Source: Acholoe squamosa (taxonomy: Eukaryota > Annelida > Polychaeta > Phyllodocida > Polynoidae). Taken from it: a stretch of DNA of 64,000 nucleotides. The notes under the pieces are model-generated. The model saw only the letters and a list, made by a program, of their open reading frames with translations. It was not told the origin of the DNA and did no database searches. The stretch covers positions 74,782,002 through 74,846,001 of the forward strand of contig OX439039.1 of assembly GCA_949317995.1 (NCBI GenBank), read 5' to 3'. The number at the start of each line of letters is the position of its first letter. Positions within the stretch are counted from its first letter, which is position 1. Below, piece after piece: positions 24,791-61,640 of this stretch. A program made the translations under genes and the position numbers.

Positions 24791-24913
24791 AGAGAATAGA
24801 CAACGATCTTCTTCACATCGAGACTGTCTGTTGTCCCATAATGCAAGAATGCATCTGAGTGTATTATAGGACAACAGGCAGTCAAGATGTGAAGAAGGAG
24901 TTGTCTATTCTCT
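24791..24913. mobile_element. ~123-bp long-stem hairpin element
   Basis: The left arm starts AGAGAATAGACAAC (24791) and continues CTTCTTCACATC and TGTTGTCC. The right arm ends GTTGTCTATTCTCT (24900-24913) and carries the reverse complements in order, with few mismatches and a loop around ATGCAAGAATGCAT. Non-coding. Confidence 0.8.
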
Positions 24914-26284: not shown

Positions 26285-26508
26285 CGCTCACTCACTTATC
26301 ATGCCCTTTGGTCTTCATGATAAATAGAGGTTCCCCATGTGAGTTATTCGCTAGGGTGTATTCATGCTTTATGTTGACCCTTCATACTGGGTTGATAGAC
26401 TGTCAAACAGTTGGCATGCTGCTCCCGAGCTACATGTAGTGAGCAGACTGTCCAGCGATGAATTGGCACAAAAGAATATGAATCTGGAGGCATTTAACAC
26501 GCAAAGGG
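26285..26508. mobile_element. palindromic TTAA-family element, decayed
   Basis: The right end GCAAAGGG is followed by TTAA (26509-26512). The interior keeps weak GTCTTCATGATAAA, GAGTTATTCGCTAGGGTG and ATTCATGCTTTATG units. The left end is not clear. Confidence 0.45.
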
Positions 26509-28260: not shown

Positions 28261-29677
28261 CCAAGTTTAGCAAAATGAGGGGGCACTATCCAAGAGGTCG
28301 GGTCGCAACCCCCTATTTATGAGTTAGCAAATAATCTCTAAGATATAGACAATAATGAGGGGCTTCTGCGCCCCTAATATGATATGCAAATGGCAATCAT
28401 ATATGCTGATGGAAAGTGATTTAAAGTATCAGGCTGGGAGATAAGTATAAGCCCTAATCAGAGGTGACATATGCACGCCATAGCTCCATCATATAGCGCT
28501 GCTGCTACACCTCTCCTGCCCCTAACACTGGCACCTTAACAGGTAGCAACAGCTGACATGCCAAATGCAGGATTACCTGCCAACCAATGCAATTAATGAG
28601 CCAGATAGCTCCCAGCCTAAAATAGATGGAAAGGTGGAAGGTAGTCTTACCAATTATCAGTTTTATTCTGGTTAGGCCCTGTTCATACTAACCAGTTTTA
28701 CAGCGAAGAAGGATGATTTTTTAGCTAAGACGGTGATAAAGGTTTTAAAATCATTCTTAGATTATATCGAAAAGGAAAGAAACAATAAAAACGACCGAAA
28801 GTATAGGATCTCAAGGACTAAAGAGGTTATTGATTCCAGCATTTGGTACTTGATAAGTTGTAGGTATAGGGTTTTTGACCCCACAATTTAGTGCTAGATG
28901 AAGTATAAGGGATTCTGATTACACCCCTCCTGTCCAGCACGCACACACGTCAGTATTATAGACCCTGGAGGACATGCATGTGTGCACCTCAAAGCCTGCC
29001 ACAACCCCTGATTCATCATGTAGGTCTTGGTACCACCTCCCCCACAGTTCACACGTCACTCACTCCTCACACATTTTTACACCCCCACGTATGTATATTG
29101 TAGCACTCTGTGGCACTCATTTCCGCACGCCAGACACATTTTTACATATGTACATACATGCTCCTATAGGTACAATATTGACCTCCCATATTAGAAAATT
29201 CCCAAATTCCTCAGCATGGCAAAGCCCCCCCCCCATAACACCTCCACACCATGTCACTGATCCTCCATGCCATTTTACATCTTCCTCTACGTATTGCTCA
29301 AACTGTATAAAATTCCCATTAAGATGATTGGTGTCCTGATATAGGATCTTCAGAAATGCCAATGTATACATAGTTTTCCTCCAGCTGTCATTTTAGGAGA
29401 AAGGGTACCGGTACTTCATATTTGACCAACGTACAGGTGTATATGTCCTGTCTTGGTAGATACCACTAAGACATGAAGGGCATTTGAAGAAAGTGGAATT
29501 GGTCTTGAATCATGAATGATGGAAGTCTATTCCATCTGTCAAGAGGTAGTCCATTCCTATTTTCTAGCTTCACAGATGTGAAGGGGCCCTACAGGTGTGC
29601 TGCTAGATGTATATATAGTGGATGTATGTAGAAATTTGTTTGGATTTGGGGAGAATGGTGGGGGGGGGGGGGGTTAA
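28261..29677. other. non-coding, nothing recognised
   Basis: No exon seen. A C-run lies near 29226 and G-runs near 29660-29673. Confidence 0.45.
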
Positions 29678-29903
29678 CCCTTCAAGGGCCGCACATGTAT
29701 TAATGCATCATACATATTGGTCGTCATGATGCATTAATACAGCCCTGTCAAGCATCATGACGACCCTATAGGGCCGATACACCTTCGGAGGATCGGCATG
29801 ATGCTCCAATGAGGTGTTGGCGAGCAGTATCGCCAACACTTCATTGGTGCATCATGACGACCAATGGGCATGATGGACTCTTGCATCAGCGGCTCTTAAA
29901 GGG
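29678..29903. mobile_element. palindromic TTAA-family element, well preserved
   Basis: TTAA (29674-29677) precedes CCCTTCAAGGGCCGC, and CGGCTCTTAAAGGG is followed by TTAT (29904-29907). The interior has two modules: TCATGATGCATTAATACAGC, then GGCATGATGCTCCAATGAGG with GTGTTGGCGAG facing its inverse TCGCCAACACTTCATTGGTG. The element is 226 bp and non-coding. Confidence 0.85.
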
Positions 29904-30035
29904 TTATACACCGCTGACAGACCCCTGTCTAGTTGAGGTAGGCCGATTCACACCTCACCTGAGACCCAGGTAGACAGTCCCTTTTAACTCATGTATCACC
30001 AGGATGGCCAATTCCTTTCAAAGGGTAATTCTTAA

Positions 30036-31520: not shown

Positions 31521-31597
<77 letters not shown>
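31520..31597. repeat. (CT)n microsatellite
   Basis: About 78 bp of near-perfect CT dinucleotides. Confidence 0.95.
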
Positions 31598-32228: not shown

Positions 32229-33552
32229 CCACCACTATTGTTAAAAAATTATCACTCCCTAACAGGGGTCTAACCCATACATATGCCTCACTCCCTTTAT
32301 GATCCAGAGGACCGGTATGCCTCATGTGTTATACTGCCCTAGGTATACTAACGATGATGTGAAACAGCATTGATGAAATCAGGCATTCACACAGTTGAAA
32401 CATATAGACTCCCAGGGTATAGACTACATGCACTAGTGTTCAAATCAAAGGCAACTGACCACTACATGTGTAGAAACAGGAAAATAAATATCAGTCATAA
32501 AATCTACATAACAACCCCTGGAAATGCCTCTTATCTCCCAGCCCTAAACCCATCCTCCCCCTCCTCCATACCCATAGACACACATAGCTCTGGACGGCAG
32601 ACAATGGCCCTTTTACAGAGCTGGGACATTGAGGTGTTTGTCATAGGGCTCTGATGGACAGTCAGTAGTGTGGAAGCTGCAGTCTTCAAGGTTACCCCCT
32701 CCCCTTCCCACCCACTCTCCCACCTCCTCCTCCAAGGCTGAGCGGCGTCGTTGCCTACAAGTCACGCCGGTTTGTTTGATCTGCCATCCCGACGAGTGCC
32801 GTTTTCAAGTCGAGCCCGACCTCCGTTTGCGCCGCGTCTTCCATGGAAGGCTGTATAAATATACGATGAGCTTATGCGTCAAGGCCCCCACCGGCATATA
32901 CCACCACTAACCCCCCCCCCCCCCAACTTCTTCTCAAACCTTGGCCATATTATTTCTTTCTTTCTGGTTTTCCCGGGGGTTTTCCTCCCCCACCTTCATA
33001 TTCCATCCAAACAGTACCTCACAGTCCTTTCAAGCTATGCCTTCTTCTCTTCCCACTCCTCCAGTCCCAAACAGATCCCCTACATTTTTATGAATTTCTG
33101 TAGTTTCAAATAGATACTTTGTAAGATTCAGTGAATCAATCAGTATGAATGATATATACTTTATAAAAGTGGTACAATAGGAGTAAACTTAGAGGGAAAC
33201 AATATGACTCGTGTTATTTGGTACCTGTTTGAAAGCAAGAAAAATACCATGCAAAGAATCCCAGGCAATAATAACCAAAATAATCACAAGTTGTCTCCAC
33301 TGTAGAGGCAAGAATATTAAAGTATGCAACTACCTATAACTGTACATCTATTAAACAAAGCATGCCTTTCCCACCGTGCTTTCCTTCCTTATTTCTCACC
33401 ATTTTTTTTCTGTCATGGCTGAAGGAGGGGTATTTGCAAGTCTGTCTGGTATTTTATGATTGGCTGGAAGGGGAATTCTCCTTGTGGAGGAGATAGGGGC
33501 GGTGGGGTTGACTTTCCATGATGTAGCATTGGGATTCCTCTATATGATTTAA
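32229..33552. other. non-coding, includes CpG-rich patch
   Basis: The patch at 32735-32870 is unusually rich in CpG for this window (GCGGCGTCGTTGCC, GCGCCGCGTC) and ends in TATAAATATA near 32852. It has an open plus-strand frame but no clear acceptor or donor. It could be a regulatory element, and I do not call a gene. A 14-C run lies at 32911-32924. Confidence 0.35.
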
Positions 33553-33971
33553 CCATTTAAAGGGCCACCTATAGAGTCAAAGGAGAGGGCAGTGGATAGG
33601 TTTTAGCTAATATTGATGTATGCAGGCCTGCTAAGCATAGTTCCGACACTGCTTTGAACCATCATGTTGATATCCTCAGTGCTTTTGTCAATCCTGTAGA
33701 TTCAGTATGCTGTATGAATGCAGCCCTGGCGAATAGACTCACCCTGCATTGATGCATCAAGTCGATTTATGGGAATGATGCATCATATCATGGTGTTGCA
33801 GCTTCATAGGTTCATCTATTTTCAGAGGTCCAGAGGCCCCTCAAATTTAGTCTAAAGTTATATATTTGGAGAAATACTTCCACTTGTGAAGTTTTCAAGG
33901 GCCCTAATATTTTCAAAGGTTGGACCAACACCCAACTGGTCATCAATACCTCTGATGTTGCCCTTAGTGGG
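33553..33971. mobile_element. long palindromic TTAA-family element with extra module
   Basis: TTAA at 33549-33552 and 33972-33975 flank ends CCATTTAAAGGGCCACC and CCCTTAGTGGG. Besides the GAATGCAGCCCTGGCGAATA hairpin module, it carries a ~140-bp module (about 33805-33950) that recurs at 55424-55560. 419 bp, non-coding. Confidence 0.65.
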
Positions 33972-34358
33972 TTAAAAATTCTCACAATGCTTTTAATAAC
34001 GACAGGGCATCTTGATGTAGTGGACCAACTGTCCCTCATGCAATCACTCGTTACAGCGTCACGTTTCTCCTCTGAGCCATGAGAGCACAGAGACTCACTG
34101 ATCCCCCACATTTTAGCCTTTGTTTATACATATCTAACCTTACGACCTCCTGAACCTGGACAATTCTAACAACTTTGGCCAAAATTTATACACCCAGTCT
34201 CCAGGGGCCTTTAACAATTAATATTGCATACAAGTAGCTCTAGAAACACCGCTCTGTTGGGAAAAACATATCGAAACTTTGTAGTTCATGGTAACTTTGT
34301 CCAGTAGATGTTCATAATGATAATATATGTACACTTTGCACAGCTCAGTGCAAATTTA

Positions 34359-34505
34359 CCCTTTAAAGAACGCATAGTCCCTTCATCATTATAGTGGTCA
34401 AGGTACATGCAACAATGCAGTGCTGGTGAGTAGGATCGTACTCCATTGGTGCATCATGCAAACCAAAAGGCAAGAACCTGAAATCAATGTACGACAGTTC
34501 AAGGG
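34359..34505. mobile_element. palindromic TTAA-family element, short copy
   Basis: The left end CCCTTTAAAGAACGC follows TTTA, and the right end CAAGGG precedes TTAG. The interior is one hairpin, GCAATGCAGTGCTGGTGAG, facing CTCCATTGGTGCATCATGC. 147 bp. Confidence 0.65.
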
Positions 34506-35309
34506 TTAGAGATATACTCAACATACATTTTTTGTGTGTCAAATTTTTGCCAAAGTTGTGAGAGCTGACCCTCTTCCCCTGCTCCTTTCACTTATGGTGC
34601 TCTCAGCACAGGAAAGACTGCATTTGGTTAAGTCACAGGGCACACACTATTATGGTCGATTTGAAATGGGGTATTGTGAAAATAGGATTATATACAAACA
34701 CTGCTGAATCACCAAGTCCGATGGTTTGTTCACTTTGTGGAATAGGTGAATATTCTGGACGTGTCTTTGCATTGGTCATGCTGCTTTTTTGAATTTGAAA
34801 TATAACGGGAAGAGTCGTATAATACTTGGATGTGTGAAGAAATGTGTGCACATTTAGTTGAATCATATATTCACAGACTATACATGGGAATCACATAACC
34901 ACACTTTTAATTTGCATTGCAATGTATGAAGTCAAAATTATTGACTACGACCATAGATCTACTGTATTTCTATATGAAAACACATGTACTGTATCATACT
35001 TTACTCAGGTACCTACATATGTGTAGGTCTAGAGATTCCTAATGAAATATGATTGCTAAAAATGATAAAAACATGAGATGATTGATTGGCAAACTTCTAA
35101 TAAAGTTGGTTTTTTTCAGAAATGAGGAGATTAACTGCCTAATTTCATGAAAGTAATCAAGTTGCAATCTAAATGGCCTATAGAGACTGTAATTCATTTC
35201 CCCTGACACTCCCAGATTATGTATACCTCTCCCCACCTGTGGGGTGGGAATATATGCAGGTGGGTTCAGCCAACCTGTTAATTGAAATGGGCAAGATCCC
35301 ATACAATAA
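34506..35309. other. non-coding, nothing recognised
   Basis: AT-rich sequence with no exon or repeat noted. Confidence 0.5.
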
Positions 35310-35553
35310 CCCTTTAATGGCTGCCTAGTGCATTAATGCGTCATGCCTTTTGGTCGTCATGATGCATGAATGCAGCCCTGGTGAATAACTCGCCAGTGCT
35401 GTATTCAAGCATCATGCCAACCCTACCGGAATGATGCACTTGCCAAAGAGTCAGCATGATGTACCAATGTAGTGCCTGCTCACCAGCACTGCATTGGTGC
35501 ATCATGACAACTAGGGAACATGAACCTGGGGGCATCCTGAGGCCCTTCAAAGG
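35310..35553. mobile_element. palindromic TTAA-family element, well preserved
   Basis: ATAA then CCCTTTAATGGCTGCC opens the copy. GGCCCTTCAAAGG followed by TTAA (35554-35557) closes it. Two modules: GAATGCAGCCCTGGTGAATA with CGCCAGTGCTGTATTCAAGC, and GCATGATGTACCAATGTAGT with GCACTGCATTGGTGCATCAT. Confidence 0.8.
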
Positions 35554-35724
35554 TTAATTGAAATAGGTAAGGTCCCATACAGTAGCACAGCAGGGCCCTG
35601 CACAAACCGTTGACTTTATCACAGCCATATCAGCAACTATAAGGTCTCAGATACCTAAAACCTCCTGCTACAGCATCCTTCCCCTATGCTGGAGACAATA
35701 AGGAACCAGCCCTCCATTTGTAAG

Positions 35725-36086
35725 CTCTTTAAAAACTGCATAATGCAATAGTGTATAATATCCTATTGTTGTCGTGATACATAAATGCAGCCCTGGTGCG
35801 TAGCACACCAATGCTGCATTCATGCATCATACTGGCTGTATGGGGTTGATGCACTTTCCAAGGATCTGCATGCTGCCCTCGTGCAACAGTGGGGAGTCAC
35901 CACGGCTTCTGCACTCAATGGGCACATGGTACATACACATGCGTTCCCAAAACGTTAAATAAGGGTCTTTTTGCAATGAAAAAGCGGTGCTTTGAGAAAG
36001 TGGGAACGCAGGTGTTTGTATAGTGTGTGCATCATGACCACAAATGCGAAAAAAAAAGCACTAAAACTTCTGCAGACCTTAAAGGG
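35725..36086. mobile_element. palindromic TTAA-family element with nested 81-bp foldback
   Basis: The left end is near CTCTTTAAAAACTGC. The right end GACCTTAAAGGG is followed by TTAA (36087-36090). The interior has the AAATGCAGCCCTGGTGCGTA hairpin. From 35935 to 36015 a smaller palindrome sits inside: ACACATGCGTTCCCA faces TGGGAACGCAGGTGT, with AATAAGGGTCTTTTT between, as in the foldback at 8981-9484. Confidence 0.65.
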
Positions 36087-37017
36087 TTAATATATAGAGG
36101 CCTAACCTCCTGGTCTATTAGTACACTAGGTTAGGCCCATGTGGTGATATATTATTTTTATGACAGAACAAGTTGTGCTGGTTAGTTGTCAGAGATAGGC
36201 TGAGAGGTGTGAACAGGATGTACTGTATGGGGTCTGTGGTTGGAGTAGACTTGTTAAAGGCATGCAAATACACAGATTTGACACACAGGGAAGTTTGCAG
36301 GGAAGAAGTAGACTTGCTACAGTCTTCAACTTTGTATATTTGTGTCATCAGATTCTGTCTGCTCTAAGAGTAAAGCCAGATGGACCATAGTCTTGTTGAA
36401 TTTGCATGGTTGGTAAATTTTACCATCCACACAATATATATTAAATTGATTTATTTCATTGATATTTATCAGGACATTATTGACATAAAAGTTTTGAGGG
36501 TTGATGATTTCTGAAACATGATAATGGGTAAATATAACACAACACCATAGCCTACATGCCTTCATCATGTGTTTCCCATGTAGGTATGTAGACAATAAGA
36601 CATACAGCACACGCCATGCCTCAACTGTTGATGTACAGGATCCCTTATTCATCTTTTTTTTACCTTTTATCCCCCCTCCCCACCTTCCTCAAAGATAACA
36701 ATAGTTTCATTCTTGATAAACAACAAGCCAATCCTGTAGCATACAAAGGTGCATGTCTTGATAACACTATACAATGTACCAAGGAGGTAGATTACCTGTC
36801 TGCACGTCAAACATAGCATCATGTCATCTCCACAATAAACCTTTAGGGACTACAAGTTGGACTTTGCTTCCTCGACCGTTATATTCCTCAGATCCCTCAC
36901 TACCCCAGACACAGGATCAACAACCCCCTCTATGTTTTCTATTATATTTGTTCTTAAAATTCTCCAGGGGCGTAGGAAAAGGGGAGAAGGGGGCCTGCCC
37001 CCCCCCAATCATAAATT
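36087..37017. other. non-coding, nothing recognised
   Basis: AT-rich, with no exon or repeat noted. Confidence 0.5.
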
Positions 37018-37487: not shown

Positions 37488-37739
37488 CATAAGGGAGGTG
37501 GGGTCTGAATATGTATGCCCCCCCCCCCCCAAAAAAAAAAAAAGATTTGCCAAGAATTCATAATAAATTGGATAAGAAGCTAAAACTGGTAACGTAGTCA
37601 CGATGGGCCCCCAGCTGCCCCCCGCCCCCCCCCCCAATGAAGATTTGCTTCCTGCGCCTCTGTTCTCGAATAATTTGCTTCCTCAGGCTTGCATTTTCAA
37701 TATCTGAGGAAGCAAGGGCGGCCGCCTGTACATGAGTTT
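37488..37739. other. poly-C/poly-A and poly-C tracts
   Basis: 13 C followed by 13 A (37518-37543) and another C-run near 37622-37635. Confidence 0.7.
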
Positions 37740-37935
37740 ATGTACCTTGGTCATCATGATGCACCAATGCATGGCTGGCGAGTCTACCCATTAGACCTGC
37801 ATTGCTGCATCATAACGACCCTTCAGGATTGTATCAATCCCATATCGTCAAAATGATGATGTGTGAATGCATCATTGGCTAGTAGACTCACCAGGGCTGC
37901 ATTCATGCATCATGCCGACCAGTGTGCAAGACCCA
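37740..37935. repeat. palindromic TTAA-family interior modules
   Basis: CATGATGCACCAATGCATGG faces CTGCATTGCTGCATCATAAC, and a second pair ends in GGGCTGCATTCATGCATCAT then GCCGACC. Recognisable termini are missing. Confidence 0.6.
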
Positions 37936-40124
37936 GTAATGTATTTTTACAACTTAGTTATGTGTACTTAATGTGAACTTACACATTCAAGAGCATTTTT
38001 CGCCTCATTGAATTTCTGATTCCTGAAAAGGAAAATCCATTTGAATAATAGATCGGTGAAGGAGTTGAAATGCCCAATGATAAATCATGAATGTTCTCTT
38101 TTATGACAAGTCATACAGCAATGCGACCATCGACCATCTTTAATGAAGATGTGATATAAATTTGTCAGTTATTATTGATATAGGGGCCCTTCAGTGGGAT
38201 TTGAAAGGTGTATAGTGAAGGGGGGGGGGGGTCTTCAAATGGCCCTCGTCACGGAAGTCGGCTACTGATTTCTGGTGTGTCGTTATTTACGACCATCTTC
38301 ACGCCAGGTGCGCCACTGAAAAGAAAATTCGCTGGTTGCCTGCGGATAGATTGGACGTGTTTGTGTGGGTCGCTGGTAGCCAGCGTAGTGTGTCGATTGT
38401 CGTCTGGGCCGGCGTCTGGGTGACCTGGGGTTGGCTGTCTGGCTAATGAGACTCTATCCACACACCATAAAACGATTCACTACTGATTAGTTCTGTCTTT
38501 TATTAGTGTAGTTTTCCCATCGATTTTAGCACCTTTCTCTATTGTAGCTTCTCCTTTTCGTTCACCTGGGGCTTCTAAACTCACCGCACTTCAATTTTAT
38601 ATTAATAAGGGGGTTTTCTTTAAGAAAAAGACAAAATAATAATAAATCTCTATTTATTCATATAATTTCTTTTTGTCAGGTACATACATATATTGCAAGA
38701 CAAATTAAATACTGTCTGGTCCTTTCAATGATGACTTTTGATGGGAAACTTTCAAATGTAAATCGTATACACTGCAAACTATATATAATGAGTATTTAAG
38801 TGCAAAATAACGTTTTAATAAAATTTAAGTACCCTGGCCTCGTGGAAACCAGGATTTAAATCTGTAGTATTATTTACATGCATGGGAATCTATATTACTA
38901 TCATGAAAACTCTACGCCAATATCTGGTCATCTGACCCTCCATATCAAGCACATTTAAACTGAAACAGTTATTTGATAGCTTTTACATATACAAACCCAC
39001 TTAAGACAAAGTCCATTTCAAATTTGAAAAGCATCGTGAGGCCTGCCCACGCGTGTGATGCTGAACAGTAGCCCTATCACCTTATCAATAGCGTGTCGAG
39101 ATTACAATCAGATATCGTTTCAAATAGGAGGTTATCAGCACGGTAGTACCTGGGGTATAACGAGAGTGATGGGATGGATGTATGACTTTAAGTTTAAGGC
39201 TGTGATGAGCTTAGCTCTTTAAGGGCCACATAATTATCTAATGCTAAATATTTTATTTTTATTGGCCCAGGTCCTCCTGGGTCATTGGCGGCGCCTTTTC
39301 AGCCAAATCCACAAATTTGTAATCACCAACTTTAGGGTGTAATCATGCAGTGATATACTGTTATTTTGCATATTTCTCAAAAGCCAAATGAAAGTTTCAG
39401 ACCGGGGTTTCAGATCTCATCTATCGGACAACATTTTGTCCTTCATGGTGAGTGATGTCTTTCTCTACGAAAAAAGCTGCTGTATTTACGTCATGTCTTC
39501 GGGTGCTATACTGACTACAAGGCCTTTAAGTATTGAGTCTATGGGTGCGATAAACTTTGGCGATAGAATGAACACATGGGCTCCTATGGGAATCAGCAGA
39601 TTAAGACGATAACAATTGCGATAGCACCTACGGCTGAAGGGTTATATGTATTGTCGGAATGTGAAAAGTCTCCATATATGGAGACCGTTCATTAGCAGAC
39701 CGTTCATGTAGTTATATGTTTCATCACTAGTTGTCAGGAAGGTCTATACGAGGACCTGTCATATGCCTTTTTTTCAGTCGGCAGGTGGCATGCGATGTCC
39801 GTGTAGCCAATGGCATTCCGCATTTTTGTGAACAGTCTCATAACACTTCTGTTATTTTTGGCAAGGAAGTGTCATACCCCCTGGTCATTGGTACAATGGT
39901 TCACTGGGATGGAAGTTTGATCAGAATGGAAGACTTTAAGTGGGAATTTCTTCTACAAAATATGGGAAAATAAATAGTGAGTCCCCTACAGTATGTTCAT
40001 AACTGCTTTACAGCAGACAATCTATTTTAATTTCATCTTTTTTTTCATATTTGGTGGAAGACCCTGGGCCATAAGTGCTCTATAGCACTCGTAAAATCTT
40101 TGATATTTAAAGTTTTTGCATGGA
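37936..40124. other. non-coding, nothing recognised
   Basis: A G-run at 38220-38230 is followed by a mildly CpG-rich segment to 38440 without splice-bounded frame. A lone terminus-like CTCTTTAAGGGCCAC lies near 39218. ATGGAGACCGTTCATTAGCA near 39676 contains a short local repeat (GACCGTTCAT twice). Confidence 0.45.
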
Positions 40125-40350
40125 AGCATGCCTAACGAGTAACTTTTCTAATTTCTTGACCCATGCAGATCCTACAGGATCGATACACTTCTGAAGGTGA
40201 CTTGGCATGATGCACCTGAGAAACTATAAGGGAGGGAGGGGGGGTCAGCATGATGCACCGATGCAGCAACTCACAAGCACTGCATTGGTGCATCATGACA
40301 ACAAAGAGCACAATCATTGAGGCATCATGCATGCATCAGAGGGCTAGCTG
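40125..40350. repeat. palindromic TTAA-family element, decayed
   Basis: GGCATGATGCACCTG and GCATGATGCACCGATGCAGC are followed by CACTGCATTGGTGCATCATG. Termini are not clear. Confidence 0.5.
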
Positions 40351-42575: not shown

Positions 42576-44028
42576 TTGATGAGAAAAATAAAATCTAAAA
42601 AAATATTTTAATTATCAGTTATTTATGAGTGTTCATGTATGTTTATAGCGCATGATACAAGTGTTAGTGACTCAGTAACTTAGTGTTATCTCTGTTCATT
42701 TCTTGGAAAAGCAACAGTATGGCTAGAATATTTATCCGTGACAAGCAGTCTTCTTCAATGATACCACAGTGACACCAGTAGAGACATATCAGCTCTATAT
42801 TGTTACAGCTTTATCAGTAGTTACACAATAGTGAGTGCTAATATCACAAATCCTTACACATGTTATGCCAACGAGGGCACACATGTATCATTCATATCTG
42901 AGGCATGGCTTGATAATACGGTCTGTTCACGACACTATGCCGCTGGGGGCGCTACAGTCGCTCCTGTCGGATAGCGCCCTTTGGGGATGGGTCATTGGGG
43001 TGAGGGCCATAAATCATATAAAATAGGTCGTGACACATACCCATCATACATATAGCAGGCCACATGGGGTATGAAGTAGTCATGAACCTATTCTCCTGCC
43101 CTCCTTTTTTCTACTTCTCACCACCAAAATGAACAATGTAGGTGCTCTTTTTTTTTGTAATAATATATGAAAATATGGGTAGAACTATCTTGAAATGATT
43201 AGTAGACATATGAGTCTGGAAATCCCAGAGACATGTTATTAATGTCGGTTTTAGCCAGCAATATGCCCAGTTATATTTACAATTTGTTAACATTAGTAAT
43301 CTGACATAATATAGAGCAGTTTGATTGACAGCTACAAGTTATTTTGTTTGACTAGCGTTGGTTCCAACTACTTCACATATACACGAACATGTATATTTTA
43401 GGTTTGGATAGGCAATGGTCTCTATCTAAACACCACACTTAAAGGCATAAGTTATGTGTTTAACATTTATAAACAGAGCATCGTCATAAATATTCCAATG
43501 ATACCTGTATGTCTAAATAGTTAAAGGCATATGTTATCCAAAAAGTTATAGATCTGGTGTTGTCCTAGATTCTGCACGTGTGGGTTTGAGTAATCCGTTG
43601 TCTGAAATGATATTGTGACTGTCTTAAAGACAGTAAACACTAGTTTGGATATTAAAGGCAATAATGTACCTGATATGACCAGACAAAGGTGTTGTCCTCA
43701 AGATTTGAATACTGTACACATAGGCTTGGAGAGAAATTCAAAATAATGTTATCAATACAGTTTGATATCACCTCTGAATGCCCTTCAAAGGGCATCATTT
43801 TAAACACTGCCCTTCATGTCAGGATAAGGTATTCCACACTGCCCTTCTAGATCTGAATAAGGTATAGCTGTTGCTTCCTGTCCTCATTGAGTCCTTATCA
43901 GTCATGTCGTGCCTTATCACCCATCACCAACCTGTCATATTCCTACGCAGCCATGTCCCATCTCAATCTCCTGTGTCAGTTTGGTGTGGAGACCAGGGAC
44001 GAGCAGTGGGGCATTGTGCTTAACTTAA
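42576..44028. other. RGM intron, nothing recognised
   Basis: CCGCTGGGGGCGCTACAGT at 42940-42958 is a close CTCF-like core. Otherwise AT-rich intronic sequence. TAAAGGCAT...TTATGT words recur near 43440, 43522 and 43654. Confidence 0.5.
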
Positions 44029-44249
44029 CCCTTTAAAGGCCGCTGATGCACCAATGAAGGGCTGGCGAGCAGTCTCGCCAGCACTTCATTGGAGCATCAT
44101 GATGACCCTACGGGGTTGATACCTGTACTCCTGGAGGGTCGGCATGAAGCTCCAATGAAGTGCTGGCGAGACTGCTCGCCAGCACTTCATTGGTGCATCA
44201 TGCCGACCAATGGGCATGATGCGCTCCTGCATCAGCACACTTTAAAGGG
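44029..44249. mobile_element. palindromic TTAA-family element, best-preserved copy
   Basis: TTAA at 44025-44028 and at 44250-44253 flank perfectly inverted ends CCCTTTAAAGG / CTTTAAAGGG, followed by GCTGATGCA and TGCATCAGC. Inside are two hairpins in tandem: ACCAATGAAGGGCTGGCGAG facing CTCGCCAGCACTTCATTGGA, and AGCTCCAATGAAGTGCTGGC facing GCCAGCACTTCATTGGTGCA. 221 bp, no coding capacity. This copy defines the family structure used elsewhere in this annotation. Confidence 0.9.
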
Positions 44250-45885
44250 TTAATCTGTGGCCTTGTGGAAGATAAGACCATATGCTACGTGATATTAGAC
44301 TCTTAGATATTGTGTGTTACATGCTCGTGGCCCACATCTAGAGATATGAGCACAAACCGAGATCTGATTAGACTACTTAGGTGGGCTGTTATCTGTATCA
44401 GAGTTTTGGTGATCCTACTTCTTAAATCTACCCCAATCTACCTGTGAAATAGAAAGGTTACAAGTACACGGTGAAATTGTGTGTCTATTTGGTAGCTAAT
44501 TTGTGTAGTTGCCCTGTGTTTAGAAAATCTAGTCGTATACTCATATTCAAATGAATTAATTCTACAAGGGTGATTGTACAATTGAACTGCTAACACGTGT
44601 TTGAGCTAAGACATAGATTATAGCTATACAAAAATTGCGGTCGGCTAATGATACAAATGTGATATTGAGAAAGGAACGACAAAAATAATAACAAAAAACA
44701 AGATGCTAATGTCCCCTAATTGATTAATCATGTCGCATATAGCACGGCACCATTTTAGCCTTCTATGGGCACAATAGACAAAGACAATACAGTTCTATAC
44801 GTACTTGCTGCATTGCACCTATTGTGACAGGAGCTAAGTATTTAACATTATGTCAGTAGGTAGGTCCATTGTCTCTGGCTCACCTTAATTCCTTTTATCT
44901 ATTGTTTATCCCATTACTGGCATTAGCCGGCTAGCACCTGCATGTTTAGAGCAGGCATTCACTGTGTCAACAATACACACCTTAGCGGCTTAACTTAAGT
45001 CCCAAAACACCGCTACACGACAAGACGCTGGACGGAGAATTAGGACTAACACAATGATCCGACACATACACAAAAAGATATTGTCAAAGGGTTATGTTTA
45101 TGTCGGTGCTTAAGGTGTCTTTAAGTTAATGTTCTGCTGCATTTTTCACCTTATGTTGCATATGGATGTGTAACAATGTACATGTACACCTACGTTCCCT
45201 AAATTTACACCTGCGTCCTCTGGTTTTAATGACTCACAAAGGAACTGCACAAGTTCCGGTTTCATCAGATCTTTTATAAAATGTTGCAATACCAGAATGT
45301 GACTGCATCCGTATGAAGAAAAAAAGTGAGAGTTTGGGATGTGTATTGAACCCTGTGATGGCTATGTGTATTTGACCATAGCGGTTTGTCGCCAACTTAA
45401 TTTCCATTATTCTATCTAGATTTTATAGAATGGCCGAGTGATGCATCATAACGTATAATGCAGACAGTCATGAGCTTTGTGAAGATATGATAAGAATGTG
45501 ATTTAAAAAAACTGTTACAATTAAACCATATTTTATTACACGTTACCTAAATTGATAGTTCCAAAGTGCAATATATGTGTATGATAAACGCTCATACTGG
45601 TATCTGGAAATCTCATTGACAGGAGCCTGGGGGGATTCAAGGTAGGGGGTAATTTCAATGAGACAATTATTTCTTTTGACTAAAGATATCTGTATGCAAT
45701 TATTTGGGTTCTTGCATTGAGACCCCCTCTTGGGGGACTTCAGATGTTTAATGACCTTCTAAACTTAGCCATATCCTCAGGGGCCGGGTATTGGGCAAAG
45801 CAGATTACCCTACTTCCAGACCACTGCCCAGCCAAGCCTGCTGTGTATAGGATGGACAATGGTGTCATCTCCTGACCCTTTGAGG
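44250..45885. other. RGM intron, nothing recognised
   Basis: AT-rich. Two TACACCTACGTTCC / TACACCTGCGTCC words near 45185-45220 resemble ends of the foldback family at 8981. Confidence 0.45.
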
Positions 45886-46289
45886 GGGACATGATGTACC
45901 CAAGTCCATGCTCAATCATTGTCATGATGCACCAAAATCAAGCACTGAAAGGTGCATCATGCTGACCATTCAGAACTATTCATCGTGATGCAAGAATGAT
46001 ATATCCCTGGTGAGACGACTTGCCAGGGCTACATTCTTGTGTTTTGGTGACAAATGGGCACCACACTTTAATAACCTTTTAGGCCTCTCATGTATCATAC
46101 CTATTGCTCGTCATAATGCATGGATGCAGCCCTGGCACGATTCACTGCGGGTCGAGAGATTAATGTATTCCAACAGGGTCGGCATGAAACTCCAATGACG
46201 TGCTGGCGAGTAGACTCCCCAGCACGTCATTGGGGCATCATGACGACCAAAGGGCAGGGTGCAATCCTGCATCAGCCGCCCTTAAAGGG
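45886..46289. mobile_element. palindromic TTAA-family elements, one or two adjacent copies
   Basis: The clear copy is about 46075-46289: ATAA, CCTTTTAGGCC, GGATGCAGCCCTGGC, then GGCATGAAACTCCAATGACG facing its inverse CACGTCATTGGGGCATCATG, and CGCCCTTAAAGGG followed by TTAA (46290-46293). Upstream (45886-46060) lie further CATGATGCACCA and TCCCTGGTGAGACGACTTGC hairpins of the same family without clear termini. Confidence 0.75.
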
Positions 46290-46470
46290 TTAACATCATA
46301 TGTGGTCTTTAAAGGGTTAAATGGTTTGAGATGCCCAGTCACCTGGACATCCCACTGTTAGGGCCATTCAACATCCTATTTCAGCTAGAGCTGAATGAAA
46401 ATATTCACCTCAGGTGGTAACGGGGTGATGTTTGGGGGGTTAAGATGGGAGGAAGACAAATGCCCTGATA
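46290..46470. other. RGM intron, nothing recognised
   Basis: A second CTTTAAAGGGTTAA near 46310 repeats the terminus without a partner. Confidence 0.4.
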
Positions 46471-46725
46471 ACCATTTAAGGAGAACAAAGGGTTTTAATG
46501 CCCTATCTTCAGTGGTTTCTATAATAAATGAATGCAGCCCGGGTCAGTAACTTTACATAATTGCATTCATGTACCACACCGAACATATAGGGTTGATACA
46601 GCCTTAAAGATTGGCATGATGCACAATTGCAGTGCCAGATGATGCACATTCCTTACCAACATTTGTGTATCATGAAGGCAAAAGTACAATTAACTGTGTG
46701 GCATAGTGATGTGCTCAGGGGGCTA
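46471..46725. mobile_element. palindromic TTAA-family element, decayed
   Basis: The left end is CCATTTAAGGAG after ATAA. The interior has GAATGCAGCCCGGGTCAGTA and GGCATGATGCACAATTGCAG. The right end, near GGGGGCTAA, is strongly altered. Confidence 0.5.
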
Positions 46726-47686: not shown

Positions 47687-47935
47687 CACTAGTTTTTTAG
47701 AGTGGTTTCTTCTTTATGGAACAGATGCCTAAAGTTAATTCCACAATTCTTCACTATTTTGACTTGAAATATTCTATTCCCCACTAGTTTAGAGTGGTTT
47801 CTTCTTCATGGAACCAATGCCTCAATAAAATTACACAATTCTTTCTTATTTTTACTTGAATTATTCCTGTTCCCACTAATTCAGTGTGGTTTCTTTTACA
47901 TGGTACAGATGCCTTAAATATATCAAATATTTTTG
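47687..47935. repeat. three ~92-bp tandem repeats
   Basis: Three successive units begin CCCACTAGTTTTTTAGAGTG, CCCACTAGTTTAGAGTG and CCCACTAATTCAGTGTG. Each is followed by GGTTTCTTCTT(T/C)ATGGAAC-like, AGATGCCT and CACAATTCTT words. The third is shorter and most diverged. Confidence 0.85.
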
Positions 47936-51499: not shown

Positions 51500-51765
51500 C
51501 CCCCTTCTTTAGCCCTGTAAGGAACTTATGATCGCTCAAGGTCCATTGCCGTCAAGATGCACCTATGCAGTGCTAGCGAGTCTACTGTCTAGGACTGTAT
51601 GAGTGCATTATGACGATCCTCCAGGAATGGACAGACCCTGGAATGGCAGAATGATGGAGAATGCAGCCCTGGTTAGTATAGACTCTCCATGAGTCATGAA
51701 TGCATTGGTCCATCATGACGACCAATAACCATAATGCTTTAATGTGCTATGCAATACTTAAAGAT
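51500..51765. repeat. palindromic TTAA-family element, decayed
   Basis: CAAGATGCACCTATGCAGTG, GAATGCAGCCCTGGTTAGTA and ATGCATTGGTCCATCATGAC occur in family order. Termini are not recognisable beyond ATACTTAAAG near 51755. Confidence 0.5.
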
Positions 51766-51825: not shown

Positions 51826-53832
51826 ACACAAAGTTGTTTATTTGAGTCAGTTGTCAAGTGGGTGAAGTATCTCCAAGTCACCCCCTGAACTCTCGAGTTC
51901 TTTTCTTCTTTTTGCACCATACGACAAAAAGAAAAAGTGGAAGAAAATGTCCATCTTCTCCACTCAATTGTGTGTGTGAGGATGCCGTAGGCTTTGGTAG
52001 TAACATTTTCCATTTGTGTCCTGATGATGCTTGTTATCTAAGCTGCAGCGATGGCGAGTAACTCGCCTGTTTATGATACCACAGCTCCAGTAACGATGTG
52101 TCTCAAAACAGAAATAATGTACTAACCTACAGTTGATGGCACTGATCGTTTAATACTTAGAGTAGTGTGCTCCCCTTGAATGGTTTGATAGTGAGGGAAA
52201 TTGAGGGTTGTATATAATGTTTTTCTCCCTGATAATAAAGGACTTCTCAAGAGAGCTCCCTTCTTTCCTCTACCTGGTACCTCCTGCCATAAAGACTGAA
52301 GACATTTATGGGAGCTGAGGGGGGCCTCCTAAAGGCCATAAACATCAACAAAAATCAATACAATTTTCTTCTCGCCTTCTATATTTATACACACTGAGGT
52401 CAGTCGGTATTAGCAGATCGATAATTTAATATATTTTTTTTTACTGCCAAGTCAATAACCTTATTTCAGTGCAGGAAGGGCCTGTCATGGGTTCACTTGA
52501 AAATTGGTATCGACTACTTATCATTTGAACAGACAGCTGAGACACAGAACTAGCAATTTAGATTAAAAGTCTGACTTCGTTGTTGACTTGTTTTAGAGCC
52601 ATTTACATCGACATATAGAGGGGTTGCCAAATACAATTAAACTGTGACTATCTTTGGCATTCTGAATGTCCTATTTGGAAGAGGTTGTAAAGTCACTAGG
52701 GAAATAAGAAAGGTTCATAGAATGCACTGAGAATGCTGTACCTAAGTCTAAAAGAGAGTGGTATCTATATACAGACATGTATAATGCATCCCAGTTATCA
52801 CCAAATATGCCTTGTCTTGTAGTTTAATAGTTATACAGTGTTCATCGACTAAACTATGCCAAGTAGCTTTTAGGCTACAACAAAGGTTCAACACAGACAC
52901 TTTGCCATTTAATCTGTAAGTTATCTACTTGAACCAAGGGACAAAATGTTTACAAAGTTCACTTTGTAGATAAGGAGAGATTGGGTAACCCTGGCTGTCA
53001 GTTTTTGCATCTCTACTGAGGAATCTAGTTCAGTGTTGCTGAGGAAATAATAGTGGGATTCTTTTCTTTTTCTTTTTTTTTTTTTTAGATAATGATATAT
53101 GGAAGCTGTACTCTGTTGACTGATTCAGAGCAAGGCAAGAAATTATGTTTCATGTATACCTGGTACTGCCTCTTTTTCGTAGAAATCCATGTTATTGTCA
53201 ATAGGACTCTGCCCTCAATACTGTAGCCATTTTATGAGTTAGGATGATGTCTGTAAAAAGCCCATCATTTGCCATTTTGGTCCATTATTTTTCCATATTA
53301 CATTAGTATGAAAATGTGTGCTAGCCCGGGGTGCTAGCATTGAAGTGTCTACTTCCAAGTATTGTATCAGATGGGGCTTAGAAATTTACATTCTGCTCAT
53401 GTCACTCTGGCTACCAGAGATAGCAGAGTCAGAATTAAGATAACACTGCTTTATATAGGTAGATAAACACACCACTCTGGTAGCTCTTACAATTGTTGTA
53501 TCCATAGTGGTTATCATAGATAGGAGCCAATATCTAGGCCTCCATAGGATAGAGTTTGTATTTGTGCAAGCTAGATTTGTAACTAAATCTGATTCACTGA
53601 ATTTGCCATGTTTTCTTCATGCATTCTTCTCCAGAAATGACTAGTTTTCCACTGGAATTGAACCGGGAGTGGCAATGCAATGTGCAATAAACATTTGATA
53701 TGAGCCTCCAAAGTTTTGAATTCCCAAATTTCTGAGGAGAAATTGATGATAACAAAAGTCAAAAATATTTGAAAAAAGTCTGATTGTAAGTTCAATCTGT
53801 ACTAAAGTCAATGTTTGTTTTCTCCCCAACAG
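51826..53832. other. RGM intron, 3' part
   Basis: AT-rich with a T-tract near 53072. It ends in the acceptor TTTGTTTTCTCCCCAACAG (AG at 53831-53832) with a good pyrimidine tract. A GCGATGGCGAGTAACTCGCC palindrome near 52050 is a fragment of the TTAA family. Confidence 0.6.
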
Positions 53833-54371
53833 CCGAGAGTTGTAAATTGGACGGTTGCTGGCAGCTCTACCAAACAGCACAGACAAGCCTTGGTCTTGGA
53901 GACGGCTTCTCAGCCTCCAGGGATGACTCTACCCCATCCCCACAGGCTCTAAGGGACAGGTGTATAGCACTAAGGACGTACCGCCGCTGTATAGACAATA
54001 TGACAAGGTGCAAAGGCAACCTTAACTACCATACCTCACACCAAGTTGTACAGGCTAAAATGAGGCAGTTTAATTGCACCATTTCAGGACCTGTTTTTGA
54101 TGGGGCAGCTGCTCCTCCAGGGCGGGGAGGCCCTGGGGGGTACAGAGGGGGCCGGGGGCAGGCTCGGCCCCAGGTGTGTTCATATGCAGGACGTAAGGAG
54201 CATAAACACTGTGGATTGTTTGGGGATCCACATTTAAGGACGTTTGATGATAAATTCCAGACGTGTAAGGTGCAGGGGGCTTGGCCCTTGTTGGACAATC
54301 AGTATCTTACTGTGCAGGTCACTAATGACCCTGTTGGAGTATGGGAGGGCACAGCCACAGCTACAAGCAAG
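53833..54371 (+). CDS. repulsive guidance molecule (RGM), N-terminal domain and GDPH exon
   Basis: RGMs are GPI-anchored cell-surface proteins that bind neogenin and act as BMP co-receptors. This 539-bp exon lies between a strong acceptor (CCCCAACAG) and a consensus donor (AGCAAG-GTAAGG). Numbered from the signal exon it covers residues 33-212. Eight cysteines before the cleavage site (36, 41, 76, 85, 92, 114, 148, 159) follow the vertebrate order, including CK-x-x-x-C and FNC. CGLFGDPHLRTF (159-170) holds the Asp-Pro bond (164-165) at which RGMs self-cleave. FQTCKVQGAWPLLDN-QYL (174-191) and QVTN then ATATSK are nearly vertebrate-like. NMT (88) and NCT (113) are likely N-glycosylation sites. 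The usual RGD is replaced by KGN (93-95). A Gly/Arg-rich insert lies at 127-145. The remaining D-type domain and the GPI signal, which start after ATATSK in the family, are not found downstream, so the gene continues beyond the window. Confidence 0.97.
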
Positions 54372-55423
54372 GTAAGGATTGTTAATATTTCTAAACTTTG
54401 ATTAGAAAACCCTTCAGGGATGAAAGTCTTCAGGGATTTCCCTGATTTCAGGAAACTGAAGCTCCAAGACTATACATTCATATAAAAGCTAAGGTTTTTG
54501 GACAAATATTGGACAATTTCAGGGAATTTCGTGCTCTTTCATCCCTGAACCTTCATAATGTGTGTTGCAATAAGCTTGCTGAAAAATGTTTGATAAAGGG
54601 ATAAAGTATCCTTTAGGTGGAATCAGAGAGTTCAGCCTCTTTGGTGGACCTCAAAAGGAATATGATGAAATTTAACATTGAAATGAAAACAAAACAAGTC
54701 AAATTTTTATTACAGATGGTTGGGCCAATAGTTTGCTTTTATTTGAATATTGGAGAAAAAAAAACTGGTGTTCATGTATTTATACAAATTGACTTTGTAC
54801 CATGGATAATCTGAACATGGATAATTGACACTGGTAAAAATAAGGTCGGCGTTTGACTTCTGATGCCACTGTCATAAGGGCACAATTACATGTACAGTAC
54901 AGGTGTGCTAATGTAAATCATGTACTACAAATTATTTGACTCATATTAGACATTTACAAATTCAGTTGAAAAAAAGAGTAAATTTAACTGAATAATGTAA
55001 GGTCAATTATGTCATTTACATTAAAGTCAAAAGCCATATATTCCAACCATTCTCCCAACAACACATGTATTTGAGACATGCTGAAACTCCATTACTTTGT
55101 CAATCAAAGACCCAATGGGCCTCTGTAATGAGCACTTGCCTGACATATGAGGAAATGGTATGAGTTGGAATCGTTAAATGTTCCTAGACGTAGCCCAGGG
55201 GTGTGCAATTAGGACTTATTACTCGGCTCAGGCAGGGGAATGACTTAAACGATCTGTGCATGGAGGATATGTACGTGGACCTTTAAGTTTAGCTCTTCCA
55301 GGGTCTCGTAATGGCTCAAAACTTAATGTATGTTTGTGTGTCACCAAGAAGATCCAATGCAGTGCTGGCGAGTCTAACCCACCAAGGCATTGGTTGTAGA
55401 CGTCAGACCCTCAGAGGTTCATC
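54372..55423. other. RGM intron, with fragments of repeats
   Basis: TTCAGGGATTTCCCTGATTT near 54431, and its partial inverse near 54520-54550, resemble ends of the 470-bp element at 37018. A GATCCAATGCAGTGCTGGCG fragment near 55351 is from the TTAA family. No exon. Confidence 0.5.
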
Positions 55424-57290: not shown

Positions 57291-58292
57291 AGCTTCATCA
57301 GCGTCCCAGAGATGCTCTGAGTGAATGATTACATGTGTTGTATCTCCTGACAGCGTTACTACACACATCGACGGCTCATTTCAGTTTAAATCAAGAGAAA
57401 AGTTTTCAATGGGGATAAACATGGTACCTGGACCGTCACCACAGCTATATTCAGGTTGAATTTACTGTAATGTTTGCACATCTAGAATGCATTGCTTCTC
57501 AGAGTGTCATAGTCAGCAAAATATGAAACAATGTACTCCATTCACCACAAAATACATTTATGCTACCTCATAAAGTAGGTCATGTCAAAAAGGACCAATA
57601 TGTTAATAACCATCACTGATCTTGAGAGGTGTTGGCGATTAACTCGCCTTCGCTGCATCAGGGCATTATGCCCACCCTTCGGAGCATTTAATATCCCATC
57701 GACTCGTTAAAACATGGTGCATATTGAACTCGAGCACGACCGAGTTACTCCCTGAGCTGCATTAATAGATCCTTCTGTCAAAAGACAATAATGCATTCAA
57801 ACACAATGCTGTCCATACAGAACTATCAAACACAGCTATTCCATCATGTTGTGGTCATCCAGTGTTGTAGCTTCAGTTCCCATGGTGGTACATTTGTAGT
57901 AGGACAGGTAAAACGTGATGATTTATTCACCAGATTGTTGCCTCCACTTCTATAGGACACGTCCATTCAGGCTAGAGCCTATTGCTTCCATGCAGGTAGA
58001 CAAAAACCTACTTTTCCCATGTGTCTGGGGTGAATATATCCTACCCGTACATGTCATGGGTGATAACTCATCCTATGAAAGGCGAATATGGTCGATTCTC
58101 ACGGGTTTGGCCAATGTCTAACCCACAGAAAAGTTGAGAGCTTTTGCTGTAATGTGCATCAGAGGATACAGCATCAGGCAACACACAGTGACACCCAGTC
58201 CCAACATCAGCACTGAAATCTAGCCACATAGGCTAATGGCATGAGCAATGGCAAGTCTACTCGGCAGCCCTGCATTTATGCACCATGACGGT
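57291..58292. other. RGM intron with degenerate palindromic fragments
   Basis: GTTGGCGATTAACTCGCC (57631-57648) and GAGTTACTCCCTGAGCTGCA near 57741 are decayed TTAA-family hairpins. No exon. Confidence 0.45.
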
Positions 58293-58520: not shown

Positions 58521-59652
58521 TATTACAATACATTTAAAGCATTATGCAGAATATCAAGGGCTACCAAACAGCACACAAACCCCCGCAGGGGCTTGGTGAT
58601 GGATTGCGTGCCATCCGCTCTCCTCCGTGCAGGGACCAGGGAGCAAAGATGGAGTGGGGTTTAATTAGAAATAAAAGTTTCAGAAAACGCATGGTGCAAT
58701 CTAAAATGGTAAAAGGCCTACATGTTTACCCCTGCCCCACCCCAAACACCTGTAACCTACACAGCGCCCACACTGCCATGTTATGGATGTTTAGTCATCA
58801 ATCTTGGCCTCAGTGTATTGCTTCCCCTTTACCAGTTAGCAGTCGCCCTGGTAGATCTGCCATAATAATACTTTAAATATTAGTCTTTAGGATATATGGT
58901 ATAAAATGAAGTAATTGGAGTGGAGGAATATAAGTGGTTTGGCCAAAGAAACAGGTACAATGAAGAAGGGAACTGGGAGAGCATGAAGATATATCCATTG
59001 ATACCAAACTTGAGGAAGAGAAGGTGAGATCCAGAAAAAGCCATAGTACAAATTCGAGAAAATAGACACTTCAACAAGTCTCACCCATTCTCAGAAAAAA
59101 GCAGTCCTATCTTGTGGATTCAGATGGCTATGGCCAAACCTTGACAGGGAATACATATAGGTCGGAGCAATATGTTTTTAGTATCCAGAAAAAAGTTTAA
59201 AACCCTAATTTCTTGTTCATTTTCCCCAAAACATTCATTGGAATCATAGAATGGGAAAATGAGGTTGTAGAGTCATGAATTTCAAGTTTTGGCCAAAGTG
59301 GTAAGAATCTACCATCTCCGCTTCACTCCAGCGGCGGCGGCGGCTAGCGGGGAGCATTGCGTGTCATGAACTGATTATGGGCCATTTAATATAGAAGCCC
59401 GTGGCCTACAACAATGCACCAGTCATGCATTAATGATGTCTCCCGCCCGCTCCATGACATCGGATACCCCCATACACCTGCAGTAGTCACTAGTAATAAA
59501 ACTCTGCCGCCAACCTCCAGTTTACATTCCACAGTAGCGCTGTCAGGACTCCAGAGGCTGAGAGTAGTGAATGGGTGGGAAGGATGGGAGATGGGGTGGG
59601 TGGAGGGGGGGGGGGGTGAAGTTGATGTTCACAAGGTCCCCTGCCATACTAA
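58521..59652. other. RGM intron, nothing recognised
   Basis: A GGC triplet run near 59331-59344 and a G-run near 59606-59616. No exon. Confidence 0.45.
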
Positions 59653-59886
59653 CCCTATAAGGGCAGGGTATTGTGCGACAATTGTACACTTATCAACTCT
59701 GGGCTTTGGAGGCTTTATGGGGGCCATGGTGCATGTGTGGGCCTCTTGGCGATTACTTTGTGCATTATTATGATGGCCTTGAAGGATAGAATAGTCGGCA
59801 TGATGCTCAAATGTAGTGCTGGCGATTAGACTTACAGCCACTGTATTTGTGCATCATGATGAGCTATTATGTGGCCTTCTAAAGGT
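59653..59886. mobile_element. palindromic TTAA-family element, decayed
   Basis: The left end CCCTATAAGGGCAGGG follows CTAA. The right end GGCCTTCTAAAGG precedes TTTAA. The interior hairpin GGCATGATGCTCAAATGTAG and TGGCGATTAGACTT faces CACTGTATTTGTGCATCATG. Confidence 0.6.
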
Positions 59887-61255
59887 TTAACCCTTCACCC
59901 TCCACTTCTCCCAATAATAACAATCCCCAGGCCACTAATCACCCCTCCGCCCACCCTGGCAGCCTCCTGGTCCGCAGTGGAGCATTGAAGGAGGAGGGCG
60001 CGTTGTATATGTATCTTCTCCAGGGTGTAGGTCGTAAAGACAGCGAGATGGAACAATTATCTGTCATGGGAAATGAAGTAGGGACATAAAATGTAGCCTA
60101 GATCCATATTTATTATTACAGTTCGTACAGCCATATAGTTGCAGGGTGTACCGATATTTTAGATACAGTAGCAAATATTGAACATACGCATGATGTAAAA
60201 ATGCATAGGGAAACTCAAAATGGCAACCACCTACAAATTTGGGGTAGGGCAAGGGGGTTTTCTAGCAGTTTTGACCTTTTAGATCTGACCTTTTATGCTG
60301 GTCAAAAGGCTGGAGAGGCAGGCACCCTACTCCATCACAAATTGTACTCTTGTTTTGCCATCCCCTGATATCCTTACCCTTATCTTTTTACCAAATTTCA
60401 TCCCAAGTATACTCCCACGCCACCTTACGTCTAAACACAGTATACAATGACGTATTCCACCTGCGTCCCTACGTCAATTGACGTACACCTGCGTGGTGAC
60501 GTCAGTGTGTGCCGACCACACGTCTTGAATGACAAACTTCACACGTCCACATTCCTCTAAGTAGAAACAATGTCATCCCTGCCCCTTCTTCATCCTCTCT
60601 CTCCTCCTCCTCCAGTCAACTCCAGGGTCGTCTCCTCCAGACAGTTAGTACTCCAGACACCCCTCCACTATAAAACCCTCTCCTTCCACCCACCACTCCT
60701 AAGTACATCCTAAGTACGACTGGCATTTTGTATCTAATGTATGGTGTGAAATGGCGATATAAATAATAACCAGAGAGAGAGAGATGGGGTTTGTGCTATC
60801 GACATTGCGCTTTCCTATTTTACAATGGCCAACATGTATTCAATGTGATATCAAAGAATTGAAAAGAGGGTTTGAAAGTGTGGAGCGACGCCACATAGTG
60901 ACCCCATGGCTATTTTGACTGCATACCTCCCGCTCTACACCAGTCCATTTAGATTTGAATAATTTCTAAGTTGATCAACACAAAATTAAAATGATGTATT
61001 AGTGCCGTATTGGTGAGAATTTGGTTTTACCCACGGTACCTCACCCTATGCAGCACACACCACCGGCAGCTAGGTAGCTCATTTGTATGATGGAGGAGAA
61101 ATCGGTGTAAATTCTCGTGGTAAGCCCCACCCTCTTATCTATCCATAATATGCGGCCTAGAGCTGTGATATCCTCATCTGTATGCCATACATAATGCCTC
61201 CATCTTCATGTCATTAGCACTCACCACACCTAGAAATGACCCGGAGCACCCATAA
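59887..61255. other. RGM intron, nothing recognised
   Basis: TATAAAA near 60669 in a CTCC-rich stretch is not supported by any other promoter or exon signal. GACGTCAATTGACGTACACC near 60471 is a local palindrome. A short GAGAGAGAGAG run lies near 60773. Confidence 0.45.
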
Positions 61256-61640
61256 CCCTTCTAGGGCCACATAATGTATTAATTAATGCAGAGATATAAG
61301 TTGTCAGAATCTTGTCTAACTTGAGATATTTTTTTTATCTCAGGTTCCCCATCCCAAGAATTTGTATCAAAGTTTAATACTTAGATGAACGTTTTGCAGG
61401 AGGATTTATATTCATGAATTTAAAATTTCTGTTTTTAGAAATTGTCACCCTTTCTTACCCTGTATTATGTCCTAACTGCATAATTTTGTCCTGATATTGC
61501 ACGAATGCAGCCTTGACGAGTAACATGCATCATGCCGACACTACAGGTTCGATATAATCCTGGAGGGTCGGCATGATGCACCGATGCAGTGCTGGCGGGT
61601 ATGCTCGCATCATGTGACACATAAATGGCTAATGTTACAT
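61256..61640. mobile_element. palindromic TTAA-family element with inserted fragment
   Basis: ATAA then CCCTTCTAGGGCCAC opens the copy. GAATGCAGCCTTGACGAGTA and GGCATGATGCACCGATGCAG with GTGCTGGCGGG continue it. Between them, GCAGAGATATAAGTTGTCAG near 61289 matches the end of the 470-bp element at 37018, suggesting a nested or fused fragment. The right terminus is unclear. Confidence 0.5.

Follow-up and report, generated by a model that had tools for sequence, protein, structure and literature searches.

Short palindromic sequences bounded by TTAA recur in the 64-kb stretch of DNA analyzed here (the window), and they raise the question of what kind of element they are, where the element ends and its target begins, and what the hairpins inside it represent. 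We consider them a decayed non-autonomous MITE family of the piggyBac/TTAA type, a new family of a known kind of system, and put the probability of this sequence-based assignment at about 0.8. Target and tips are the only features that point to piggyBac, and a transposase of that class is what they would imply.

Starting from three seed copies, all taken from the window itself, we built up a profile and searched the window with it. At E<1e-3 the search returned 33 loci, of which 29 reached E<1e-5 and 22 scored ≥60 bits. Among the 33 loci that were kept, 25 cover over 100 columns of the profile with E<1e-5. In each of ten dinucleotide shuffles no match was obtained at E<1e-3, the top score being 7.9 bits. 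The original prediction of at least 20 intact or decayed copies in 64 kb is thus confirmed. That the family saturates the locus was an overstatement: 32 hand-listed segments comprise 6,399 bases, which corresponds to about 10% of the window. A scan with an end matrix found 40 sites of at least 12 bits (training ends counted in), while 20 first-order Markov sequences contained 3.0 such sites on average. Across 30 matched segments 65–91% of the positions are identical to the consensus (3,475 of 4,627 overall), and the family is therefore old; the mismatches comprise 580 transitions and 572 transversions. Uninterrupted end pairs measure 222–263 bp. With a length below 500 bp, terminal inverted repeats, no coding capacity and many copies of similar size the family has the features of a MITE. 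Inside the copies we found no Pfam match above the cut-off and no recognisable coding sequence, and neither the hairpin core nor the end motif, used as search patterns, had any match in viral contigs. Among the papers listed in searches of an open-licence library, none was seen to describe this family or a twin-hairpin TTAA MITE; the family may be catalogued in Repbase or Dfam.

In its canonical form the element measures about 250 bp and consists of inverted TTAACCCTTTAARGGC ends, a hairpin A, a spacer and a hairpin B. In the consensus the subterminal stretch inside the TTAACCCTTTAARGGC end contains ATTAATGCAT, the arm of hairpin A reads GTCGTCATGATGCATGAATGCAGCCCTGGCGAGT, that of hairpin B GTCGGCATGATGCACCAATGCAGTGCTGGTGAGT, and the spacer between them comprises about 27 bases. 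The inverted right end is GCCCTTAAAGGGTTAA in an alignment of 22 copies. After the tip some ends carry GCTGATGCA (15074, 29907, 44253, 46293) and others CACATAATG or a similar sequence, so that at least two end types can be distinguished. Hairpins A and B have much sequence in common and look like a duplicated palindrome. When folded as RNA, the most canonical copy (35306) reaches -115.7 kcal/mol with a z of -8.8, and none of 200 shuffles was equally good. The copies are:

6638–6858, + strand: decayed copy, TTAA at both ends
13106–13355, + strand: copy with both hairpins, decayed right end
14664–14910, + strand: copy with decayed ends
15074–15297, - strand: copy whose end at 15074 is of the GCTGATGCA type and whose opposite end has decayed
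15559–15690, - strand: fragment of a separate copy, adjoining the copy at 15074–15297
19253–19499, - strand: copy with TTAA at both ends
20915–21177, - strand: copy with TTAA at both ends
24196–24642, + strand: copy split by unrelated DNA including a tandem repeat (~24311–24461)
26270–26512, + strand: copy retaining the right TTAA
28087–28262, + strand: decayed copy
29674–29907, + strand: full copy, right end of GCTGATGCA type, left hairpin A shortened
33549–33975, - strand: TTAA at both ends, family match at 33550–33800 only
34355–34508, + strand: short copy with a B-type hairpin only
35306–35557, + strand: full copy of 252 bp and the most canonical one, both hairpins (A and B) present, ATAA in place of the left TTAA, 85% identical to the consensus
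35721–36090, + strand: copy split by another palindromic insert (~35923–36025)
37714–37945, - strand: copy with both hairpins, decayed ends
40117–40337, + strand: decayed copy
44025–44253, + strand: flagged copy, derived variant, 229 bp with both TTAA, both hairpins B-type
45874–46320, - strand: outer copy, split by the inner one at an internal TTAA, right end at 46294–46320
46068–46293, + strand: inner nested copy, left TTAA 46068–46071, right TTAA 46290–46293
46468–46700, + strand: copy with decayed right end
51509–51765, - strand: copy with both hairpins
57626–57820, - strand: decayed copy
59649–59890, + strand: decayed copy, both ends still recognisable
61476–61640, + strand: decayed copy

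Other repeats are present in the same window. The palindromic insert at 35923–36025 that interrupts a family copy has arms at 35918–35949 and 36001–36032 (78% complementary) and may be a further short mobile element. At 18488–18647 an inverted repeat of 78 nt with 77% complementarity and a loop of 4 nt is not among the family matches at E<1e-3, and an inverted repeat with 38-nt arms (87% complementary) and a 14-nt loop at 24808–24897 likewise lies outside the family matches. Tandem repeats were noted at 6148–6382 (41-bp unit, 5.7 copies, with related spaced repeats at ~5580–5940) and at 47696–47914 (92-bp unit, 2.4 copies, 81% matches).

The copy at 44025 had been singled out as the best of the family. 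The architecture described for it was recovered in full, with TTAA at 44025–44028 and 44250–44253, inverted ends, a second inverted step and two hairpins. The first 14 letters, TTAACCCTTTAAAG, are identical at both inverted ends and are followed by GG at one and TG at the other, while GCTGATGCA is found near 44042 and, inverted, near 44228. The hairpins occupy 44044–44099 and 44137–44208, arms of 71 nt with 92% complementarity span both of them, and the fold of the copy as single-stranded DNA has -108.1 kcal/mol, with a z of -22.6 and none of 200 shuffles equally good. It is nevertheless a derived form and not the archetype: about 35 nt of left subterminal sequence are missing and its left hairpin is of the B type. 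The two segments are:

44044–44100, + strand: left hairpin of the flagged copy
44145–44201, + strand: right hairpin (B-type) of the flagged copy

Aligned with the reverse complement of the right hairpin of this copy, the left hairpin agrees in 54 of 58 columns; with the right hairpin read directly it agrees in 51 of 58. Its agreement with hairpin B of the 29674 copy amounts to 49 of 57 columns and with hairpin A of the 35306 copy to 38 of 61. On the simplest reading of these similarities, the left hairpin would have arisen by inverted duplication or conversion within the element.

The position of the element boundary was analyzed on 34 ends, which were hand-picked from 48 matrix hits. The TTAA columns carry 0.75–1.36 bits and the eight columns outside at most 0.13 bits. 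Since the matrix itself includes the TTAA and tip columns, we repeated the boundary test with columns 5–18 only. TTAA within one mismatch then adjoined 27 of the 63 selected ends, or 15 of the 51 non-seed ends, compared to a background of 6.8% and to 6, 5 and 0 of 63 at shifted control positions; Markov sequences indicate that about 19 of these 63 hits are expected by chance. An exact TTAA was present in 12 of the 63, but in only 2 of the 51 non-seed ends. Exact TTAA on both sides was found for 5 of 15 hand-chosen end pairs and in addition for 6638/6858. TTAA had also been predicted on both sides of copies at 6642, 19257, 20919 and 33553. This applies to all four, with the right-hand TTAA of the copies at 6638, 19253, 20915 and 33549 ending at 6858, 19499, 21177 and 33975, but the stretch starting at 33549 matches the family only in part (33550–33800).

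TTAA is palindromic and fixed, and for single copies the original prediction was correct that target and terminus cannot be told apart. This leaves room for a reading in which TTAA is part of the element and movement takes another route without duplication of a TTAA target. Two paralogous empty sites within the window partly answer the question. When the nested copy at 46068–46293 is removed and one TTAA restored, the outer copy matches the family end over 62 columns without a gap, and TTAA is aligned with TTAA. Restoring one, no or two TTAA gave scores of 40, 36 and 40 against the consensus, 29, 25 and 25 against the end of the 29674 copy, and 24, 20 and 28 against the end of the 35306 copy. 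One TTAA is thus better than none in all three comparisons, which speaks against an element that moves without target duplication, whereas two TTAA tie or win in two of the three, and the scores do not separate one from two. The sequence at the left junction of the inner copy, TTAATAACC, leaves an ambiguity of 3 bases. Because of this ambiguity and the scores for two TTAA, the nested test is a modest one.

The second site is that of the 35306 copy, the left TTAA of which is now ATAA. It lies between direct repeats of 28 bp that are identical at 25 of 28 positions and each start with TTAA, the copy filling the TTAA of unit 2:

35278–35305, + strand: 28-bp direct repeat unit 1, TTAA at its start, directly left of the 35306 copy
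35554–35581, + strand: unit 2 of the 28-bp direct repeat, bases 1–4 of which form the right TTAA of the 35306 copy

Repeats of at least 25/28 identity at a distance of 200–399 occur elsewhere only at ~5580–5940, in the tandem array region, and at 14790, where two family copies are involved. Unit 2 has its own TTAA at the correct place, and in the flanks of the 15 hand-chosen pairs we found no perfectly duplicated adjacent stretch of 3 to 11 bases outside TTAA. Both observations make an element that carries its own TTAA and leaves the target single very unlikely. A long target duplication at the 35306 flanks was rejected as well, given that the 15 pairs lack such duplications and that the TTAA-led 28-bp repeat explains these flanks. 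Taken together, the two sites favour TTAA as the duplicated target, as far as paralogous sequences can indicate it.

Next to this target the inverted tips read CC[C/T]T or CCCTT (C in 31, C in 28, C in 25 and T in 33 of the 34 hand-picked ends). In a survey of animal piggyBac elements, as far as its text was available, no tip motif is more conserved than CCCTT, and the target is usually TTAA (PMC10813416). In the accessible text on corals, the ends of CMITE family II read CCCTTTAAGCCCTA with TTAA, and AmiPB2, an ORF-bearing coral piggyBac, starts with CCCTTTAACGCCC (PMC2872659); these first letters are almost those of our ends. Boundary and empty sites support TTAA as a duplicated target, the tips agree with published piggyBac ends (PMC10813416, PMC2872659), and the proposal of a piggyBac-type element on the basis of TTAA targets and CCC-type ends is partly supported.

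No transposase was detected in the window, which was searched as 30 six-frame pieces with stops as X, 24 of them by Pfam and 6 by phmmer against PDB chains. A few bases at the piece borders remained uncovered, the PDB-only search is the weaker one, and a heavily frameshifted transposase could have escaped detection. A non-autonomous element need not encode a transposase. In addition we scanned 18 of the 21 stop-to-stop ORFs of at least 115 aa singly with Pfam, those starting at 42100, 49401 and 59390 being left out. Only RGM_N and RGM_C at 53790–54401 passed the cut-offs, and the six-frame search likewise returned RGM only. This segment (+ strand) is an exon of an RGM (repulsive guidance molecule) gene that encodes the N-terminal domain and the beginning of the C-terminal one; it is the sole coding sequence recognised in the window, and its nearest PDB chain is RGM family member B. 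A match to Atrophin-1 is sub-threshold (23.1 bits, cut-off 29.9) and sits on a TC repeat at 31521–31597. No tRNA was found in the window, which reads as animal nuclear DNA.

Piggybac elements are not the only ones to target TTAA. Sola3 does so with a Sola-type transposase. The family could therefore be a MITE of Sola3 or of Kolobok, moved by the transposase of that superfamily. Kolobok inserts at TTAA, as do the non-autonomous Xenopus T2-MITEs, and its tips are AG/RR directly after TTAA, according to the accessible portion of the source (PMC6004289). The inner TTTAAAGGG of our ends resembles the T2-type AGGRR beside TTAA, and a window that shows no transposase is compatible with this origin. 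However, it is CCC that follows the outer TTAA here, and since conservation stops at the outer TTAA, the inner TTAA is not the boundary. We regard another TTAA-targeting superfamily as an unlikely source and retain the assignment to piggyBac.

The twin hairpins call for a separate explanation. Within copies 454 of 693 cells of the hairpin A arms are paired (0.655) compared to 0.621 between copies, and for hairpin B the corresponding values are 437 of 607 (0.720) and 0.672. Compensated cells are likewise in excess: 25 for hairpin A against a mean of 15.8 in shuffled copies (1 of 500 shuffles as high) and 26 for hairpin B against 16.4 (3 of 500). If the hairpin modules were the functional unit, as structured RNA or regulatory DNA under selection with incidental TTAA ends, such agreement within copies would be expected, and the hairpins (0.75 and 0.79) are indeed somewhat better conserved than the subterminal part (0.67). 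The highest conservation is nevertheless found in the outermost end columns (0.85, based on fewer copies), and no Rfam family matched in the window at gathering scores. Furthermore, arm pairing exceeds the expectation for independent decay by no more than 0.05, or falls below it, in 31 of 45 per-copy rows, and this arm-pairing test does not support in-place hairpin function as the main reading. Related subfamilies alone can produce an excess of compensated cells without selection, and 27 of the 51 compensated cells fall into only seven copies (44025, 29674, 46068, 14664, 6638, 13106 and 5051). We consider it highly improbable that the hairpin modules are the functional unit. We infer instead that the arm matching within copies reflects subfamilies with self-matched palindromes that later decayed in place.

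It is also conceivable, albeit doubtful, that the twin palindromes are the working part of the element, a hairpin cassette that was duplicated, inverted and kept self-matched by source elements, as the copy at 44025 may illustrate. They would then perhaps provide extra sites for a palindrome-reading domain of the transposase or result from fold-back copying during hairpin-ended excision. Were this the case, fold-back duplication would make new element forms, which would spread partly via their own internal TTAA sites. The nested modular palindromes had been called unusual. This holds in a mild sense for one feature, the matched twin hairpins, for which we found no match in the open-licence papers listed, whereas the family is otherwise of a known kind.

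For the piggyBac-type MITE family that we favour, the following course of events appears plausible. A transposase supplied from elsewhere would recognise the CCCTTTAARGGC tips, excise the element at TTAA and insert it at another TTAA, so that TTAA would be found on both sides, and the copies would decay after insertion. The internal hairpins would represent a duplicated palindromic module that was carried in source lineages with its arms kept partly matched, and they may have arisen or been refreshed via inverted duplication, as in the copy at 44025. Although much of this amounts to ordinary repeat annotation, the family is a compact and readable example of a TTAA-targeting MITE. Having two paralogous empty sites in one 64-kb window partly settles the ambiguity between target and terminus, and the matched twin hairpins offer a small test case for the origin and persistence of palindromes inside transposons.

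Among known systems, LanceleTn MITEs have been found in amphioxus. LanceletTn-2 is mentioned in passing in the available part of one report (PMC5802833). The ends of piggyBac and piggyBat contain subterminal palindromes that are bound by cysteine-rich domains, and some copies of our family (e.g. 15074) similarly have palindromic sequence just inside the tips; the accessible text of this source presents no counterpart to the large internal hairpins (PMC11707139). For 12 hand-chosen ends a piggyBac-like subterminal palindrome did not reach significance, with 22 of 300 shuffles scoring as high. Animal piggyBac elements share the TTAA target and the CCCTT tip with the family, but the available survey text gives them a length of 1.23–9.51 kb (PMC10813416) in contrast to about 250 bp here, and no transposase was detected in the window. 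As far as the accessible part of their description goes, the CMITE families of Acropora corals, which are piggyBac-type MITEs, differ in being about 100 bp long with a 75-base internal region, in mean identities of 84–97% (65–91% to the own consensus for the segments here) and in that no twin hairpins are described, where our family has two (PMC2872659). Like our family they are non-coding, have TTAA on both sides, CCCTTTAA... tips and a well conserved internal region. In CMITE-IN, a coral element related to them, a CMITE is located at a TTAA between two direct repeats of 23 bp, much like the copy at 35306 (PMC2872659).
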